Shown here: piece by piece, positions 1,563 through 15,391 of the stretch
How positions within the stretch are numbered: the stretch's first letter is position 1
Layout of the letters: the number at the start of each line of letters is the position of its first letter
NCBI GenBank assembly: GCA_014189675.1
Contig: DVAE01000039.1
Location: 1-15,391, forward strand
DNA: 15,391 bases
Direction: 5' to 3'
Source of the DNA: Candidatus Undinarchaeales archaeon SRR5007147.bin71
GTDB taxonomy: Archaea > Undinarchaeota > Undinarchaeia > Undinarchaeales > Undinarchaeaceae
Translations under genes and position numbers: made by a program
The notes under the pieces: model-generated
What the model saw: the letters and a program-made list of their open reading frames with translations, nothing else
What the model was told of the DNA's origin: nothing
Databases searched by the model: none

Positions 1563-4500
1563 TTAACCAGATTTCGCTCCAGTAACAAAAACCGTGGCGT
1601 TCTTCAGTCCAGGAGGCTCCTCACTTGGAATTTTGACAGAATATTCAATCTCGCAGACATCACTTCCGTCAATATAAGACAAGTTTCTGACAACTTCATT
1701 TATTGAAGTGTTGATAACGCTGAAATTTCCTCCGACACAGCGGCCGCCGGAACCTGTCCCTACACAGCAAGCTGTAGAACCACTTGTGTTGGCTACCATG
1801 ACTCCGAAGTTTACAGTCGCGCCGGAGCCTGAACCATCCCCTGTACTAAAGAGACTGGCATTCTTCTCAACTGATAGATTTACATCAACATTTCCTGTGT
1901 TGTTAACAACACAGGGCGCTGGAGAGCCGTCCGTAGTGTTGTCAGCCTGACCCGGAATCATATTTCCGAAACTGACATCGCAGTTGGACAGAGTCAGAGT
2001 AACAACTGCTCCAGTACTTACGTTGTTAGACCTGTTGGTAGTTCCATTAGCTATTAAATCAATAGGAGTAATGTTTACGTACCATACATCGCCCTCATTT
2101 GTCTCACTAGAAAGCATTACATCATATTTTGCTGAGCCGGCGTTGTAAAGTTTTGTGATTTGTTGCACACTAAGAGCTCGGTTGTAAACAATAACATCAT
2201 CTATATCTCCATCATAATAGGAAGTTCCGGCGAGAGTTTGAGTGTCCTTTACTCTTCCAATTGTCTGATTAGAGTTAGGATCGGATGCTCTCTTGCCAGG
2301 AATGTCTATCTGAGTATGAGGAATTCCTATAAGATCTGGACTACCGTCATAATACAGATTCAAGTCAATAGCTGTCTTTACAAGAGTAATCATATGCCAG
2401 TTTCCATCTGCAATATTATTAATTCCAGTTATGGTATCCTTAGCGACATCATCACAGATTATGAATTCGGCAACAGAAGGGGGTCCTGCCTTTTGGTAAA
2501 GGAAGTACATTGCACCAAGAGGACCAGCACCACAACCGCCCCCTACCTCCATTGCCTCATCAAGTACCTGGAAAATTCCCTGTTTTCCAGTAGCTGAAGT
2601 CCTCAGCCAAAGGTTCAGACTAAAGGGAGAAGCTCCTGCAAAACTAAAGTCAGCACTATAAGGTATTGAAACATATTCATTTGTACCGCCGAAATTGTAG
2701 AAGTTATTTGCAGGACCGCCTGTAGTCCACGTCAGAGCTCCACCCATTATACTTCCATCGCGCTCTGCGCCTGACCAGTCCTGTACAGCAACATTTAGAG
2801 TTCCATTTCCTATTTCAAATGGCATATTCAGCACTGTTATTGAACTTTCATTGACAACCCAGTTGAAGACATTAATTACCGTGTCATTGTCCACATCATT
2901 CGTCGACTGGTTGTAGGCCGTAAGATTTGCATCAGTCCTGTTGAGAGGGTCATCAGTCGCATTGAGGATTGGAGAAGCCTGAGTAGGGACAGAGTTCATT
3001 ATTGTAACAGTCGCAGAAGTTTTTGTTGGACCGCTCCTGTACTTGTCAATAGGAGTAACATTGACCTTCCAAATCTCTCCGCGCTTGAGCTCCTCAGCTA
3101 CAGTGACATTGTATTTTGGAGTTCCGGAATTGTAAATTGCAGAAATCTGCTGAGCAGTCAAAGTCCTGTCGTAAACTGTAAGTTCATCAACAACTACATC
3201 GCTGTAATTGCCTCCGTAGCTACTGCCCCCATAACCCTTTCCGATGTAGAAAGGATGAGCATTAGTTTTTAGTGTGGCAGATATTGCCTTAGAACTGACC
3301 TGCGTTCCGTTCACGAAGAGCCTCATAGTCTTTCCATCATAAGTTCCAACTATATGCTGATAGGAAAGACTTGCAGAGTTGACATGATTTATTGAACTTC
3401 CTTGGTCGGAGGCGTTAGCAATCCAGAAAGACAGAGTCTTTCCTGATGGATTACTGGTTCCGTAGAGCTCAAACCAGTAAGGTCCGGCCCAGTGAGTAGA
3501 TGTGTTTGCCTTTCCCAAAATTATTGTTGAATATGAAGCAGGAAGGGCAGTGATATTGAGCCAGAAGCTGATTGAGATATTCTGAGTTATATCTAATGAG
3601 TTGCTGTCTGATATATTTATGAAATCGTCTACCCCGTCGAACTTGTAGCAGCCACCTCGCTTGCAGCTTGCGTTTGACATATGAGTCGGTCCGCTAACAA
3701 GACCAGAGCTTCCATTCCCGTAGTTGTTGACGCCCGTAGAGTTATTGACATCGAATGCCATATTTACCACAGCGATTGAAGTGTTGTTGACAATCCAGTC
3801 ATAATTGTTGTAAACGGCAACGCTGTTATTCTGGTTTGTGGACTGGTTCCATGCTGTGAGATTTGCACTGCTAGTATTGTTCGGATTGTCCGTAAGATTG
3901 AGGAGGGGAGTCGTATGACCGGGCTGGTCCCAGCCACCGGCTCCGCTACCGGAGAGATTCATTATTTTGTAGCTTGACCCCTCTATATAGAACTGGAAAC
4001 CTCCTTTTGACGTTCCGCTTAAAGCCTCAGGATGTGAGAAAGTGACGACCTTTGAACAGCTTGATGAAACCTGAGAAGTCGCATTTGCATCCGGACAAAT
4101 GTAACCGCCGGCTCCAGTTAGTGGGAAATATATAGTGTGATTGGCAGAATCAGGACCGGAAACACTAGTAAAATTTATTGCGGTTTTTAGATAGCTAGCA
4201 TCTATTACAAGAGTAGTAAGGTTGATTAAGGAAGTAGAGAATGGGACATTCAACGCCAGCCTGACTCCGTGTGTTGAGTGAGTGAAGTTGATTATTTGGT
4301 CAGTGCTGTAATTGCTGCTGTTTGAAAGGGTCGTGTTTGCTGAGCCATTTACAGTGTAAGCTGAAGTTGTACTCTCCGTTCCAAGGATAAATTTGTGATC
4401 ATTATTTGTTATAGTAACTGTTGCCGCACTAGGGCTTCCGACTGTGTAACCTGTGCCAGAAGCGAGAGTTACAGTGACTATTTCGGCTTCGTCGACGCGT

Positions 4501-6536
4501 GAATCATACAGAGGAGTGACAGTTACAACAACATTGCCCTCTGTGTTGAGGACTGTTGCAGAGGTACCAATGCTTGTATAGTCAGTTCCTGCTGTGGCAT
4601 TTCCGGAGACAGTAAAACTTATTGCCAGATTTCCTGAGGCGGCTGAATCAAGAGTTATTGTGAAGCCACCAGTTGTTAAACCTGCTTCTGTTGCAGTTGC
4701 ATCAGAGGCCGTTATGGTTGCTACTGGATCTTTAGCACCACCTGTGTAAACAGCGCATAACACAGAGAAGGGAGGCCCCATGTTAGTGCACTCTTGACTA
4801 GAACCAGGAGCTCCAGTTGAGAAGCAGTTCGTTCCATTTTGGAATACAGAAGGAAGTCCAGTCAGCATATCGCAAGTAACCCCTGGACCACCACCGTATG
4901 CTGAAGTGTCGCAATCATTTGGATGGTTAGGCTCGTCAGTACAAGGGTCATAAGCAAAATCAACATCATTATACAAGTCATTGCCAAATTCAAATCTCTG
5001 GCTAAATATTTCGGCGGGCATCTCAGATATCGTATGACTGATACTTCCGGTGTAATCACAGGAATAGTTGTAAACAATAACACTGGGACCATCAATAATC
5101 GGAGTCAAGGTAGCAATACCGCATTTTATCCAGTTGAAGGAAAGTACTGAATCTGCTAAACTGTCTTTGCTTATGTTCAGCGTCCCCTCACCCGTTGTGT
5201 TGAAGTAAACAATCCAGTCCTCACCGGTGGCCCCAGTATGCCATGGATTTATTACAGTGATATCAAAGACAATAATAAATTCCTGAGTAGAGAGGTGGGG
5301 AACGACCCAGGACATTTTATCAATGAGCCCATCGCCGTTCTCGTCGTAGAAACTTAGATTGAAATCTGCTCTTTCAGTGACATCAGTTTTAACACCGTCA
5401 ATAATCCAGAAGAGATGGACCTGCTCTGGCTCGAGGTCAGGAACTGTTGCATAGGTGAGAACATTTTCGTAATGGTAGTCCGATGAAACCTTAAGAGTTT
5501 TTGTGAGCCTGCCGTCAGCCTCTGAAAGATTTGATTCCTCGACGACTGGACCGTCTGTAACATACTCTAGTTCAAAGGCTTCTGACTCAAGGCTTTCTAG
5601 CTGATACTCGTAATCGACAGCTTGCCCCTCTACAGTATCAGAAACTGAGAACTCATTTGGAGCTGCATAACTTGTGAAAGTGACACTCTTCGCACCATCA
5701 GGTATGTCAATGCTGACCTCCAGAGTTCTAGAACGCTTTTCTGTATTCTGAACTTTCACCTTCTTTGTCCATACAATATCTTCTCCGGCGACTATTTGAG
5801 AAGATTCCAACTGAAGGTCCTGCATTTCCTGTTCGTCTGCCAGCTCAGTAGCAGCCGCAGGAGAACTTCCGGCTCCATCCGATATTACAAGACCATAGAA
5901 TATTGAATACTCAGATGCAATATTTATTTCATCTATTTCAAAGAGACCTAAAACAGCAGCAATATCAGCCTCAGGACCGGCAGTGAAGTGAACAAGTACT
6001 TCTTGACATTCTCCTCCTGAAATAATCTTGTCAGTAAGAGTAAAATCAACTTCCTCTCCATTACCAGAGAGAATGAATATTCCGTCTTTGCATACCCCTG
6101 GCTTATTGTTTCTGAAGACTATACTATGAGAAACTTCCCTTTGACCAGCTGCTATTTGCAGAAACTCTACATTTTCCCAGCTCGTGGAAACTTTTTGACC
6201 AGCTGCAACAAGACCTGTTGGCGCGTCCGATAAAGGAGAAGACAGAGCCACAGCAATAAGAGCAAGAAGAACCAGAGAAAGACCTATTGATTTCGGGTCA
6301 AATTTTGGTCTGCGGTAGCCACCTAGAGGACGTGCGGGAATTTTCCTTACTGGAGATGGAGAATTGGAAGAAGGAGTTGTAGTATTATTTTTTGAAATAG
6401 CTTTTTCCCTGAGATATTCCGTCGGGTCACGACCTATATATATTGTACGAACTTTTCCCTCAGAGTCGCGTACGCTGTCATAATAATAGGGACCTACTTT
6501 CTTCCCGCCTTTTTTGATATAGCGTTTATAGACCAA
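1563..6536 (-). CDS. Giant membrane-anchored surface protein with Calx-beta and two LamG-like domains
   Basis: A 1657-residue protein. Residues 1-40 (YKRYIKKGG, GPYYYD, GKVRTIYIG) are a basic, probably cytoplasmic head; 50-80 are a Ser/Pro/Arg linker; 84-101 form one transmembrane helix. The rest should be extracellular, with many N-x-S/T sequons. About 240-425 are beta-rich and end in NGDGLIDKMSWVVPHL, a calcium-loop-like DxNGDG segment. About 530-600 are Cys-rich. About 604-712 look like a Calx-beta domain (ATEAG, GTDYT, VDEAEIVTVTL, ATVTITNND). About 929-1136 and 1240-1466 are LamG/concanavalin-like sandwiches (YKFDGVDDFINI, ISISFWLNI, VGTYDGKTMRLFVNG, VDELTVYDRTLTAQQI). About 1510-1657 are the domain shared with the downstream small proteins. 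The start is TTG at 6536, because no ATG or GTG in frame precedes it and the YKRYIKK head would otherwise be lost. A role in adhesion or host contact is inferred. Confidence 0.88.
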   Translation of the reverse strand: MVYKRYIKKGGKKVGPYYYDSVRDSEGKVRTIYIGRDPTEYLREKAISKNNTTTPSSNSPSPVRKIPARPLGGYRRPKFDPKSIGLSLVLLALIAVALSSPLSDAPTGLVAAGQKVSTSWENVEFLQIAAGQREVSHSIVFRNNKPGVCKDGIFILSGNGEEVDFTLTDKIISGGECQEVLVHFTAGPEADIAAVLGLFEIDEINIASEYSIFYGLVISDGAGSSPAAATELADEQEMQDLQLESSQIVAGEDIVWTKKVKVQNTEKRSRTLEVSIDIPDGAKSVTFTSYAAPNEFSVSDTVEGQAVDYEYQLESLESEAFELEYVTDGPVVEESNLSEADGRLTKTLKVSSDYHYENVLTYATVPDLEPEQVHLFWIIDGVKTDVTERADFNLSFYDENGDGLIDKMSWVVPHLSTQEFIIVFDITVINPWHTGATGEDWIVYFNTTGEGTLNISKDSLADSVLSFNWIKCGIATLTPIIDGPSVIVYNYSCDYTGSISHTISEMPAEIFSQRFEFGNDLYNDVDFAYDPCTDEPNHPNDCDTSAYGGGPGVTCDMLTGLPSVFQNGTNCFSTGAPGSSQECTNMGPPFSVLCAVYTGGAKDPVATITASDATATEAGLTTGGFTITLDSAASGNLAISFTVSGNATAGTDYTSIGTSATVLNTEGNVVVTVTPLYDSRVDEAEIVTVTLASGTGYTVGSPSAATVTITNNDHKFILGTESTTSAYTVNGSANTTLSNSSNYSTDQIINFTHSTHGVRLALNVPFSTSLINLTTLVIDASYLKTAINFTSVSGPDSANHTIYFPLTGAGGYICPDANATSQVSSSCSKVVTFSHPEALSGTSKGGFQFYIEGSSYKIMNLSGSGAGGWDQPGHTTPLLNLTDNPNNTSSANLTAWNQSTNQNNSVAVYNNYDWIVNNTSIAVVNMAFDVNNSTGVNNYGNGSSGLVSGPTHMSNASCKRGGCYKFDGVDDFINISDSNSLDITQNISISFWLNITALPASYSTIILGKANTSTHWAGPYWFELYGTSNPSGKTLSFWIANASDQGSSINHVNSASLSYQHIVGTYDGKTMRLFVNGTQVSSKAISATLKTNAHPFYIGKGYGGSSYGGNYSDVVVDELTVYDRTLTAQQISAIYNSGTPKYNVTVAEELKRGEIWKVNVTPIDKYRSGPTKTSATVTIMNSVPTQASPILNATDDPLNRTDANLTAYNQSTNDVDNDTVINVFNWVVNESSITVLNMPFEIGNGTLNVAVQDWSGAERDGSIMGGALTWTTGGPANNFYNFGGTNEYVSIPYSADFSFAGASPFSLNLWLRTSATGKQGIFQVLDEAMEVGGGCGAGPLGAMYFLYQKAGPPSVAEFIICDDVAKDTITGINNIADGNWHMITLVKTAIDLNLYYDGSPDLIGIPHTQIDIPGKRASDPNSNQTIGRVKDTQTLAGTSYYDGDIDDVIVYNRALSVQQITKLYNAGSAKYDVMLSSETNEGDVWYVNITPIDLIANGTTNRSNNVSTGAVVTLTLSNCDVSFGNMIPGQADNTTDGSPAPCVVNNTGNVDVNLSVEKNASLFSTGDGSGSGATVNFGVMVANTSGSTACCVGTGSGGRCVGGNFSVINTSINEVVRNLSYIDGSDVCEIEYSVKIPSEEPPGLKNATVFVTGAKSG

Positions 6537-12410: not shown

Positions 12411-13700
12411 ATGAAGAAAACTATCCCGATTAAGGAGGCGCTTTCGACGAAGAATGTTGGAAAAACTGTAAACATAAGAGGTTGGGTTCATCGAGAACGT
12501 GGAAGCAATAAATTCAAGTTTTTTGTAATAAGAGATGTGAGCGGGACAATACAGGCCATTGTAAAAGCAGAAGATAAAAAGCTTTTCAAGATTGCCGAAG
12601 ATGCAACGATGGAATCTTCAGTTATTGTTTCTGGAAAAATAAGAAAAGATGAGAGAGCCCCAACAGGCTATGAACTTCAAGTAAGAGATCTCGAAATAGT
12701 AGGGAAATCAGAGACATTTCCAATATCAAGAGATAAAAGCGAGGAGTTTCTTCTGGACGTCCGGCACCTGTGGGTGAGGTCAAGAAAACTTACAAACGTT
12801 TTCAAAATACGCTCAACAGTTGTGGGTGCGATACATGACTATTTCAGGAAAAATGAATTCTTAGAAACGCAAGTTCCTGTTCTGACACCGACAGCATGTG
12901 AAGGAGGAAGTTCACTGTTCAAGGTCGATTATTTCGGAGATACAGTATATCTAACGCAGAGCTGGCAACTCTATTCTGAAGCTCTGGCCGCATCTCTTGA
13001 GAAGCTTTACACAATAGCCCCGAGTTTCAGAGCGGAGAAATCGAGAACTCCACGTCATCTGACTGAATACTGGCACGCTGAAATGGAAGTCATATACTGC
13101 GACCTTCCTCAATTGATGAAATACGGAGAAGAGCTGGTCTCATATGTCTGCCAGGAAGTGGCACGGAAAAATACCGACGAGTTGAAGGAGCTTGGACAGG
13201 ACCCTAGAGAATTGAAGAAAATAAAGGCGCCTTTCCCGAAGATAACTTACAAGGAAGCTCTGGACATTCTGGCAAAGAACGGGATGAAGGTGAAGTACGG
13301 AAAAGACCTGAGAACTCTCGAAGAACGAGAACTTGTGAAGCATTTTGAAAGACCTGTATTTGTCACAAACTATCCAAAGGAGATAATGGCCTTCTACAAA
13401 CCTGAGGATCCCAAGAATCCAGGAACCGCCCTTTGCTTTGACTTAATAGTGCCAGAAGTAGGGGAGCTGATAGGAGGCTCAGTCAGAGACCTTGATGTAG
13501 ATGCAATGAAAAAAGTTCTGACAGACGAAGGAGAAGATTTGAGCACCTATGACTGGTACTTCGACACAAGGAAGTATGGAGCAGTACCTCATGCAGGATT
13601 TGGAATGGGTGTCGAAAGGCTTGTAATGTGGATATGCGGTCTTGAGCACATAAGGGACGCAATACCATTTCCGAGAACGATTAATAGGAAAGCGCCATGA
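12411..13700 (+). CDS. asnS: Asparaginyl-tRNA synthetase
   Basis: A 429-residue cytoplasmic class IIb synthetase that charges tRNA-Asn with asparagine using ATP. Residues about 18-98 are the anticodon-binding OB-fold (VNIRGWVHRER, VIRDVSGTIQAIV). The catalytic domain shows motif 1 near FLETQVPVLTP (150-160); the EGGSSLFKVDYFG segment (164-176), then YLTQSWQLYSEA; motif 2 around FRAEKSRTPRHLTEYWHAEME (207-226 region); and motif 3 GFGMGVERL (396-404), with the ending DAIPFPRTINR. ACEGGSS, HLTEYWHAEME and the IRDAIPFPRTINR tail point to AsnRS rather than AspRS. Length is normal for archaeal forms. Its presence implies direct charging of tRNA-Asn rather than dependence on transamidation. Its stop overlaps the next gene's start as ATGA. 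Confidence 0.95.
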   Translation: MKKTIPIKEALSTKNVGKTVNIRGWVHRERGSNKFKFFVIRDVSGTIQAIVKAEDKKLFKIAEDATMESSVIVSGKIRKDERAPTGYELQVRDLEIVGKSETFPISRDKSEEFLLDVRHLWVRSRKLTNVFKIRSTVVGAIHDYFRKNEFLETQVPVLTPTACEGGSSLFKVDYFGDTVYLTQSWQLYSEALAASLEKLYTIAPSFRAEKSRTPRHLTEYWHAEMEVIYCDLPQLMKYGEELVSYVCQEVARKNTDELKELGQDPRELKKIKAPFPKITYKEALDILAKNGMKVKYGKDLRTLEERELVKHFERPVFVTNYPKEIMAFYKPEDPKNPGTALCFDLIVPEVGELIGGSVRDLDVDAMKKVLTDEGEDLSTYDWYFDTRKYGAVPHAGFGMGVERLVMWICGLEHIRDAIPFPRTINRKAP

Positions 13701-14410
13701 GCAAAGCAAGGACCGGAAGTAAAGCACCGAAAAAATCCAAGAAAAGAGCTTCTAAGAAGAAAGTTGTTGAAGAGGCAGGAATTGAAATTATAGAGCCCGA
13801 GGATGTGAAAACAACAGCTCAGGCTCGAAAAGTAAAGCCAATAAAAGTCGTCCTTGAAGAAGATAAGACCGATGAAGAACTTGAGACTCCCAAAGACCTA
13901 CAAGAAAAGAAAGTAGAAGAAGTTCTTGAAACCCTGGGAGAAGCTGTAAGTCAGGAAGTCAGTACAAAAATAGAGAAAGATATAAGAAAAATAAATAAGA
14001 ACCCAATTACTTTTACGCTTGAAAGCCCGAAGGTTCGGAACCAGATAGGAAACCTTAAGGAAGTTGCCGGTTCCGGTTTGCATAGCACCCGGAGAAATGT
14101 TATAATTTTCTATGAAAGAGCCAGCATAATAGGAGACAGGACCAGAGGCTTCCTTTACCTTCTTCTTGGGATGTCTATATTTTTCACAGGATTCTTCGCA
14201 ACGCAGGAAAACCTTCTGACATTTAGGGATATTATAGCCACTCTGATGACGGAATGGATAGGAAGACTTCTTGTTGTTTTTATAGGACTGTCTTTGGGTG
14301 CTTTTGGAATGGACAGAATGTTCCCGGGACATCTAGAGAAGTGGAAAAAGCTTACAGTTCCCAAAGTGCGGAAGAAATACACTCAGAAGAAGCTGAACGA
14401 AGTCGGCTGA
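13697..14410 (+). CDS. Two-helix membrane protein with charged N-terminal half, coupled to asnS
   Basis: A 237-residue protein of no family I recognise. Residues 1-22 are very basic (SKKRASKKK-type), about 23-100 are Lys/Glu-rich and probably disordered or coiled coil, and about 100-148 are amphipathic. Two transmembrane helices follow at about 151-168 (GFLYLLLGMSIFFTGFFA) and 187-205 (LLVVFIGLSLGAFG), forming a hairpin with both ends on the same, probably cytoplasmic, side. A basic tail comes last (KKLTVPKVRKKYTQKK). The ATG overlaps the asnS stop by four bases (ATGA), so the genes are almost certainly co-transcribed and translationally coupled. The stop codon TGA at 14408-14410 is the first base triplet of direct repeat A, so the gene runs exactly up to the boundary of the putative integrated unit. 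The role is unknown. Confidence 0.75.
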   Translation: MSKARTGSKAPKKSKKRASKKKVVEEAGIEIIEPEDVKTTAQARKVKPIKVVLEEDKTDEELETPKDLQEKKVEEVLETLGEAVSQEVSTKIEKDIRKINKNPITFTLESPKVRNQIGNLKEVAGSGLHSTRRNVIIFYERASIIGDRTRGFLYLLLGMSIFFTGFFATQENLLTFRDIIATLMTEWIGRLLVVFIGLSLGAFGMDRMFPGHLEKWKKLTVPKVRKKYTQKKLNEVG

Positions 14411-14437
14411 TGAAAAACCCGTGAAGCGCCCCGACTG
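14408..14437. repeat. Direct repeat A: 30-bp copy of tRNA-Glu 3' end and flank (distal att-like site)
   Basis: Thirty bases identical to 15169-15198. It runs from TGATGAAAAACCC to GCCCCGACTG; the last ten bases are the 3' end of tRNA-Glu. It begins at the TGA stop of the upstream gene and ends five bases before the stop codon of the glutaminase gene. Flanking bases on both sides differ from copy C, so 30 bp is the full identity. Confidence 0.85.
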
Positions 14438-14442
14438 AACAT

Positions 14443-15024
14443 TTACTTATTATTTATATCGCATATTTTTATAAAATTATCCAGAATCTGTTCTCCAATT
14501 TCTCCAGATGCTTCAGGATGGAATTGAACTCCATAAATCTCTTTCGACTTATGTTTCATTGATTCAACTCCACAAGATTCTGATCTTGCCACTAAGTCAA
14601 AATTGTAAGGGATTTCACTTACACAATCTGTATGAAATTCATGAGCTTGAAATTCTTTAGGTACTCCTTTGAATAATTTGTTACTTTTAACAATAACAAT
14701 TGTTTCATTTTTCTCAACTTTTGAAGGTAATTTTTCCATTCTTCCATCAAAAGCTTCTGCAATTGTTTGGTGACCAAAACAAATACCTAGAGTAGGAACA
14801 TTCAAATCAAGTAAAACTGCTAAATCAATATCAATCTTTTCAATATCAACTGCCTCATCGTATAACAAAGGTCCTCCACTCATGATTACACCTTTAAATT
14901 TATGTTCCATCACGGATTTTAAGCTAGAATCTGGACGGGCAATTATGTATTTTATTTTTCTCTTTTTAAAATAAGCTATTAATTCTGGAGTATGTTTACT
15001 TCCATTATCAATCAATAATAACAT
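14443..15024 (-). CDS. guaAA: GMP synthase glutaminase subunit (class I glutamine amidotransferase)
   Basis: A 193-residue protein that hydrolyses glutamine and passes ammonia to the separate ATP-pyrophosphatase subunit converting XMP to GMP, as in Archaea with split GMP synthase. Evidence: LLLIDNGSKHT at the N-terminus; oxyanion strand VIMSGGP (46-52); nucleophile elbow LGICFGHQ with Cys82; HTD at 131-133, matching the GuaA His-x-Asp segment; LVARSESCGVESMKHK; and YGVQFHPEAS with the catalytic pair His169 and Glu171. Length is as usual for the stand-alone subunit. The synthetase partner is not in the window. The gene is much more AT-rich (about 25-33% G+C in lines I counted) than asnS (about 42-50%). 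It has its own TATA box, and its stop lies five bases from repeat A. Another amidotransferase role is possible, but the GuaA motifs fit best. Confidence 0.85.
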   Translation of the reverse strand: MLLLIDNGSKHTPELIAYFKKRKIKYIIARPDSSLKSVMEHKFKGVIMSGGPLLYDEAVDIEKIDIDLAVLLDLNVPTLGICFGHQTIAEAFDGRMEKLPSKVEKNETIVIVKSNKLFKGVPKEFQAHEFHTDCVSEIPYNFDLVARSESCGVESMKHKSKEIYGVQFHPEASGEIGEQILDNFIKICDINNK

Positions 15025-15048
15025 AATAATGTTAGATATGTCTGAAAA

Positions 15049-15057
15049 CTTTAAAAG
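15049..15057 (-). promoter_or_regulatory. TATA box of the glutaminase gene
   Basis: CTTTTAAAG, centred about 29 bases before the ATG at 15024. The unit therefore carries its own archaeal promoter and need not rely on read-through from tRNA-Glu. Confidence 0.55.
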
Positions 15058-15105
15058 GGTTTCTTATTCAGTTTTCCATTTTACCAATCTCCTAAAAAAC
15101 AGACA

Positions 15106-15135
15106 GAAAAACCCGTGAAGCGCCCCGACTGGGAT
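15106..15135. repeat. Direct repeat B: internal copy of tRNA-Glu 3' end and flank
   Basis: Thirty bases from GAAAAACCCGTG through GACTGGGAT, identical to 15173-15202 in the tRNA region. It reaches five bases further into the tRNA than copy A, and a degenerate match continues (CCGTGAACC against TCGAACC), so it preserves roughly the last 25 bases of a tRNA-Glu. It starts 67 bases from the matching base of copy C. Confidence 0.8.
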
Positions 15136-15148
15136 CCGTGAACCAATC

Positions 15149-15165
15149 TTTTTGCTTCGCAAAAA
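15149..15165. terminator. Perfect TTTTTGC/GCAAAAA hairpin between repeats B and C
   Basis: Seven base pairs with a TTC (GAA on the other strand) loop, starting 24 bases beyond the 3' end of tRNA-Glu on its strand. It could terminate tRNA read-through or be part of the recombination-site architecture. Confidence 0.4.
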
Positions 15166-15168
15166 CAT

Positions 15169-15198
15169 TGATGAAAAACCCGTGAAGCGCCCCGACTG
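15169..15198. repeat. Direct repeat C: tRNA-proximal copy
   Basis: Identical to repeat A. Bases 15189-15198 are the last ten bases of the intact tRNA-Glu; 15169-15188 are its immediate downstream flank. On the tRNA strand the flank contains CACGGGTTTTTC, whose five T residues (15174-15178) probably terminate the tRNA transcript. Each repeat copy therefore carries a terminator as well as tRNA sequence. Confidence 0.85.
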
Positions 15199-15262
15199 GG
15201 ATTCGAACCCAGGTCACCAGGATGAGAACCTAGTATGATTGGCCGGACTTCACTATCGGGGC
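15189..15262 (-). tRNA. tRNA-Glu (anticodon CTC)
   Basis: A 74-base cloverleaf. The acceptor arm GCCCCGA/TCGGGGC is fully paired. The D-arm contains GTCCGGCCAATCAT, typical of archaeal tRNA-Glu. Anticodon stem CTAGG/CCTGG encloses TTCTCAT with anticodon CTC. The T-arm is CTGGG-TTCGAAT-CCCAG. CCA is not encoded. A TATA-like CTTTAAAAC on the same strand lies at 15291-15299. The 3' end is the target of the repeats downstream. Confidence 0.95.
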
Positions 15263-15290
15263 ATTAGGGATTTCTTGATGTTTCCACCCC

Positions 15291-15326
15291 GTTTTAAAGA
15301 TTTTGTTTTGGCGCAAGCTTTAATAA
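15291..15326. promoter_or_regulatory. Divergent TATA boxes of tRNA-Glu and tRNA-Ala
   Basis: CTTTAAAAC on the minus strand at 15291-15299, about 33 bases before tRNA-Glu, and CTTTAATAA on the plus strand at 15318-15326, about 32 bases before tRNA-Ala. Confidence 0.5.
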
Positions 15327-15353
15327 CGAGACGCCACATTTATCCAATTCAAT

Positions 15354-15391
15354 GGGCCCGTAGCTCAGCTCGGTAGAGTGCTACCCTGGCA
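15354..15391 (+). tRNA. tRNA-Ala (anticodon GGC), 5' part only
   Basis: The first 38 bases before the window ends. GGGCCCG acceptor strand, TA, D-arm GCTC...GAGT with GG in the loop, then CTACC as the anticodon stem and C-T-GGC-A. T33 places GGC at 34-36, an alanine anticodon. The 3' half cannot be checked. Confidence 0.8.

Follow-up and report, generated by a model that had tools for sequence, protein, structure and literature searches.

Which DNA lies between the direct repeats behind tRNA-Glu(CTC) of Candidatus Undinarchaeales archaeon SRR5007147.bin71, and how could it have arrived there? Large islands classically land at tRNA genes, with one integrase reading one att site. A preliminary description of the window (the whole stretch analysed here, 15,391 nt of contig DVAE01000039.1) had proposed a single-gene unit without integrase, inserted at the tRNA 3' end between two perfect 30-bp repeats in the way of tyrosine recombinases. 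In this study, the locus was compared among six genomes of the order (G000-G005), of which G000 is the source genome and G001 and G002 belong to the same genus. The source assembly is 83% complete; the compared genomes are also incomplete, and parts of G002 are masked.

Repeats and units at the tRNA-Glu locus

Copy A (14408-14437) matches copy C (15169-15198) in all 30 bp, as had been described. A third copy, B, which had been overlooked, lies between them, and thus the interval is not a single-gene unit but is split into two serial units (Table 1). In the direction of the tRNA, tRNA-Glu(CTC) is followed first by the non-coding unit of 67 bp, then by the 694-bp gene unit and copy A. Copies A and B share 26 bp, and B and C agree in 32 of 33 bp; a 24-mer shared by the repeats was reached in 0 of 200 shuffles and is not expected by chance. 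The question whether the 30-bp repeat is found elsewhere was answered by a search of the 623,718-base assembly, in which the tRNA-Glu repeat is restricted to this locus. The outer end of copy A overlaps or abuts the stop codon of a conserved upstream gene, which anchors synteny with the relatives, and copy A starts at CAG and not at tRNA position 59.

Table 1. Features of the tRNA-Glu locus in window coordinates.
Feature	Position	Strand	Evidence
tRNA-Glu(CTC), target gene, intact	15187..15262	-	ARAGORN; RF00005, 56.8 bits
Copy C, intact tRNA-Glu 3' end from position 59 plus flank	15169..15202	-	
Mini-element, 67-bp non-coding unit (C to B), shortened family 1 member	15106..15172	-	nhmmer E 5.4e-8 against a family 1 model that included this copy among its members
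Hairpin TTTTTGC-gaa-GCAAAAA of the mini-element	15149..15165	-	read from sequence
Copy B, displaced tRNA-Glu 3' end, from T-loop position 59 (ATCCCAGTCGGGGCGC...)	15106..15138	-	repeat comparison
Cargo unit, 694 bp (start-to-start distance, A to B)	14412..15105	-	absent from G001 and G002
TATA-like box CTTTTAAAG, about 25-33 nt before the glutaminase ATG	15049..15057	-	read from sequence
Class-I glutamine amidotransferase, 193 aa, GMP synthase subunit A-like	14443..15024	-	PF00117, E 3.6e-33
Copy A, outer tRNA-Glu 3' end plus flank, CAGTCGGGGCGCTTCACGGGTTTTTCATCA in tRNA sense	14408..14437	-	30/30 identical to copy C
Upstream gene, conserved, 237 aa, membrane protein-like	13697..14410	+	93% identical in G002, 86% in G001

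Both congeners possess an empty tRNA-Glu site, in which the stop codon of the upstream gene, a short spacer (8 nt in G001, 15 nt in G002) and the tRNA-Glu 3' end follow each other. The ancestral junction that had been proposed is therefore right in outline; only its spacer of 20 bases has to be corrected to 15 in this genome. When 761 bp were removed in silico, the identity of the 90 nt behind tRNA-Glu rose from 0.51-0.52 to 0.79 with G001 and to 0.92 with G002. The empty site in both congeners and the base composition of the cargo gene, whose GC3 (0.175) is the lowest among 419 long ORFs, bear out the earlier claim of a foreign insertion at the tRNA-Glu 3' end.

The cargo unit has a GC content of about 30%, versus 41% for the genome. 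Its glutaminase contains the motifs GICFGHQ and FHPE and ends with a stop codon 5 nt from copy A; the best NCBIfam match was GMP synthase subunit A with 148.9 bits, below the cut-off of 198. The TATA-like box, read from the sequence, is possibly the gene's own promoter, giving a leaderless transcript. In G001 and G002 the glutaminase has weak matches only (30-31% identity, E about 1e-11). A GMP synthase C-terminal domain was not detected in the genus; the gene looks foreign and without its usual partner. No close relative was present in viral contigs, plasmid and phage matches were distant (<60% identity), and relatives on GTDB contigs reached 28-37% only. A patescibacterial relative (37%; L063:4804-5558) is encoded in the same orientation as a tRNA-Ser that precedes it by about 100 bp; it has no tRNA-end copy and was therefore not counted as support.

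Two further observations concern the window itself. The next contig (G000:C20:1-141) overlaps the window end (15250-15391) by exactly 141 bases. This overlap starts one base after 15250, where tRNA-Glu has T and both congeners have A, and it looks like a branch of the assembly graph at a strain variant. At 1563-6536 a 1657-aa protein with Laminin_G_3 domains (PF13385) is predicted, and its gene is followed on the same strand by smaller ORFs at 619-1248 and 1298-1588.

Mini-element families and tRNA 3'-end copies across the genome

The 67-bp unit is one of many. An independent BLAST comparison matched it to the element behind tRNA-Thr (E 2.8e-5), and a genome-wide nhmmer search returned nine copies of family 1 and three of family 2. 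Family 1 is found behind Arg, Thr, Val, Phe, Ile, Pro-tgg and Glu-ctc tRNAs and, inverted, behind Leu-tag and Leu-gag, and family 2 behind Lys, Trp and, in part, Leu-caa. The distance to a tRNA 3' end is -3 to 41 nt for all 12 copies. Most of them had gone into the models, which makes their detection, but not their location, a matter of construction; no extra copy was found away from tRNAs. The two inverted elements (G000 C9:13818-13900 behind tRNA-Leu(tag) and C30:5986-6057 behind tRNA-Leu(gag)) have no detected tRNA-end copy.

The mini-elements are 40-110 bp long and without genes; one unit, that at Glu, carries a single gene. From one tRNA to another, their inner 40-100 bp are similar. We drew a three-helix structure from seven fuller family 1 copies and tested it on the same copies: 93% of cells pair and 9 of 20 pairs are changed on both sides. 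The covariation score of 0.324 compares with 0.169 for shuffled alignments; it was reached by none of 500 shuffles and exceeds all slid controls. RNAalifold on a mixed set of ten sequences gave little covariation energy, and the count on the seven copies is the stronger test. For the hairpin class of the tRNA-Glu mini-element, covariation support comes from these longer family members. Short, non-coding, multi-copy elements with inverted arms and a flanking duplication resemble MITEs. As to an autonomous parent with such ends, the family 1 core had no match in viral contigs (exact 25-mer) or outside the genus among 61 genomes, the tRNA-flank 24-mer was not found in viral contigs, and Rfam searches of seven sources at the gathering threshold matched only tRNA, SSU rRNA and SRP RNA. 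The head of the cargo unit was considered as a family 1 relative and rejected, since the similarity (E 0.012, 2.6 bits) is too weak to use and sequence is not clearly shared; only its position and the shared repeat connect the cargo unit with the mini-elements.

The 3' flanks of all 39 tRNAs were then listed. With a window of 250 nt and at most one mismatch, 10 of the 39 have their own 3' end repeated downstream and none upstream, with Ser-tga and Glu-ttc as looser cases. A scan of 79 tRNAs from other archaeal genomes, with slightly different settings for window and mismatches, gave no such copy within 300 nt. In most cases the duplicate starts at GTTC(A/G)A|N, at T-loop position 59; its other end varies from +0 to about +25 nt beyond the tRNA, and the blocks measure 17-40 bp. 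Every detached 3'-end copy sits just behind its own tRNA, and in each element copy the 3' end is that of the host tRNA (for family 1: Arg, Thr, Val, Pro, Phe, Ile and Glu). With the same pattern behind many isoacceptors, the direct repeat at tRNA-Glu cannot be regarded as the private att site of one integrated unit. A dispersed repeat unrelated to tRNA was likewise rejected, because the detached 3'-end copies are found only behind their own tRNAs and the family copies only behind tRNAs.

Empty sites extend this observation beyond tRNA-Glu. For nine tRNAs (Arg-gcg, Trp, Phe, Glu-ctc, Ile-gat, Val-tac, Lys-ctt, Thr-tgt and Pro-tgg), the 90 nt behind the tRNA matched those of at least one congener with an identity of 0.79-0.96 once the unit was removed, compared with about 0.5 before. 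The source genome and G002 have the Pro-tgg unit in common, and behind Val-gac, Leu-caa, Pro-ggg and others the congeners have their own units. In G005, from another family of the order, units of different sequence and similar layout lie behind Lys, Gln and Ser tRNAs (L171, L181, L185), and a unit of different sequence behind a Cys tRNA of G003 (L192) is a possible case. In these G005 and G003 units, all from other families of the order, GC-rich hairpins adjoin the tRNA-end copy. Exact tandem double units were observed in the source genome, 84 bp behind Pro(ggg) (C35) and 58 bp behind Ser(tga) (C32). Behind tRNA-Val(cac) (C24, 2442-2516) lies a tRNA-like 3' half, GGTTGCAGGTTCAAATCCTCAGCCGTGGCGC, that is mismatched to the neighbouring tRNA.

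Possible routes of insertion

The insertion itself is well supported. To explain it, we favour, with some reserve, serial insertions at tRNA 3' ends by a mini-element family that spreads across tRNAs with a recombinase supplied in trans from a helper replicon. The mini-element next to tRNA-Glu and the glutaminase unit outside it represent two serial insertions, whose order we infer, and the cargo unit may have used the same route. Each mini-element insertion leaves the tRNA intact and places a second copy of its 3' end, from position 59 onwards, on the far side. The putative site-specific recombinase would recognise the T-arm and join the element at the 58/59 boundary, and the covarying hairpins might be the ends that it recognises in folded form. 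Its helper replicon would be absent from this assembly.

As stated in the preliminary description, no integrase lies beside the tRNA-Glu insertion. No tyrosine recombinase, the enzyme class to which it had pointed, was found: at a threshold of E <= 0.001, PF00589 and the SSV-type integrase PF16795 had no match in this genome and five relatives of the order. The lack of PF00589 matches means that no XerA-like protein was detected either, even in G003, which is 98% complete. Cas1 (PF01867) and reverse transcriptase (RVT_1) also had no match in G000-G005. At 83% completeness of the source genome, the helper could be unbinned, and the mover is probably supplied in trans. Besides these searches, the two inverted family members behind Leu tRNAs speak against the favoured reading, as do the lack of clear mini-element sequence in the cargo unit and the CAG start of copy A. 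Furthermore, a cognate 3' end at each tRNA is not expected from one fixed att site, whereas target duplication or RNA copying would predict it.

The negative recombinase searches would suit trailers of the E. coli tyrT/rtT type, in which a tRNA 3' end and a trailer RNA gene are duplicated locally and spread by homologous recombination without a dedicated enzyme. The same layout is present at tyrV of E. coli K-12, where three 178-bp repeats start with 19 nt of the tRNA from the T-loop; in addition, the Pro-ggg and Ser-tga units are exact tandem duplications and the hairpins covary. We nevertheless consider this origin unlikely: the empty sites show the gain of whole units at about nine unlinked loci while the element is present behind other tRNAs, a shared inner sequence is combined with the host's own 3' end at every locus, a match that would be lost by plain recombination between loci, and Rfam returned no trailer family at the gathering threshold. 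Somewhat less likely still, a Cas1-like casposase or a different transposase could have made a staggered cut around the T-arm and duplicated the target site, with the mini-elements as its non-autonomous derivatives. This would account for the cognate copies, the hairpin arms could be terminal inverted repeats, and the casposase of A. boonei targets the tRNA-Pro 3' end via the T-loop motif TCAAATC (PMC6614799). There, however, the duplications are 14-15 bp long and start 8 bp past the motif (PMC6614799), whereas here blocks of 17-40 bp start inside it, and Cas1 was missing from all six genomes.

The fixed start at position 59 and the variable end fit an RNA-mediated copying, in which reverse transcription of a tRNA precursor halts at the modified A58, switches template to the hairpin RNA and is followed by insertion. 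m1A58 blocks reverse transcriptase, the cDNA stop and a variable trailer end would give the two boundaries (59, and +0 to about +25), and the 3' end would be kept cognate. Since no RVT_1 was found in the six genomes and E. coli, whose tRNAs to our knowledge lack m1A58, has the same boundary, this course of events seems very improbable. Lowest in probability we place decayed remnants, that is, independent ordinary tRNA-integrated islands reduced to their ends, with the glutaminase as the last gene of one of them. tRNA fragments from integrations of 9-23 kb are common in archaea (PMC9897764), and the Glu unit would be a single-gene remnant. The inner cores are, however, alike across tRNAs and the sites are recent, their flanks matching the empty sites at 0.9+ identity, which makes independent decay to the same core unlikely for the mini-elements; for the cargo unit alone it is possible.

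Relation to known tRNA-associated elements

Judged by the sequence tested, E. coli tyrV/rttR is the closest precedent. Its repeats begin GGTTCG|AATCC, at the same place of the T-loop as the duplicates described here, and both kinds of unit lie directly behind a tRNA gene, contain the tRNA 3' end from the T-loop and can be tandem. In contrast, one tRNA locus was examined there, while here one family is found behind many isoacceptors with empty sites in sister species; moreover, the E. coli copies include CCA, and the sequences are unrelated, without an Rfam match to the RNA family known for those repeats.

Mobile integron cassettes consist of a single gene, promoter-bearing or promoterless, between repeat sites and without an integrase of their own. 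The cargo unit shares the single gene and the repeat sites, but no integron-type integrase was found here and the sites are tRNA 3' ends, not attC. With islands and IMEs of the Islander type, the units share the insertion at tRNA 3' ends, a direct repeat that restores the tRNA, the displaced fragment on the far side and the empty attB site in relatives (PMC4383910). Islander-type elements carry a tyrosine integrase (PMC4383910, PMC9897764), whereas here elements of 40-110 bp are free of genes and no integrase was detected in element or genome. The same element also occupies many tRNAs, each with its cognate fragment, instead of one fixed att specificity per family. Family 2 casposons (A. boonei; PMC6614799) are similar in being archaeal, in entering tRNA 3' ends, in T-loop recognition and in their direct repeats, but differ in the offset and length of the duplication and in the Cas1-type casposase, which was not found here.

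A search of the open-access literature found no description of the pattern, which is weak evidence of novelty. A new class of element is possible. Tentatively, this could be a class of mobile DNA made of gene-free hairpin elements that insert behind any tRNA isoacceptor and copy the host 3' end from the T-loop; it is equally tentative that its enzyme would be none of the usual recombinases and that single cargo genes could be carried. In summary, very small structured elements occupy many tRNA genes of one small archaeal genome and differ between sister species. They may also help to place the puzzling E. coli rtT repeats in an evolutionary context. If their mobility is true, they would be a simple case of how an element can use any tRNA as a harmless target, and a model for the path from tRNA trailer to mobile DNA and for the arrival of single genes in reduced archaeal genomes.
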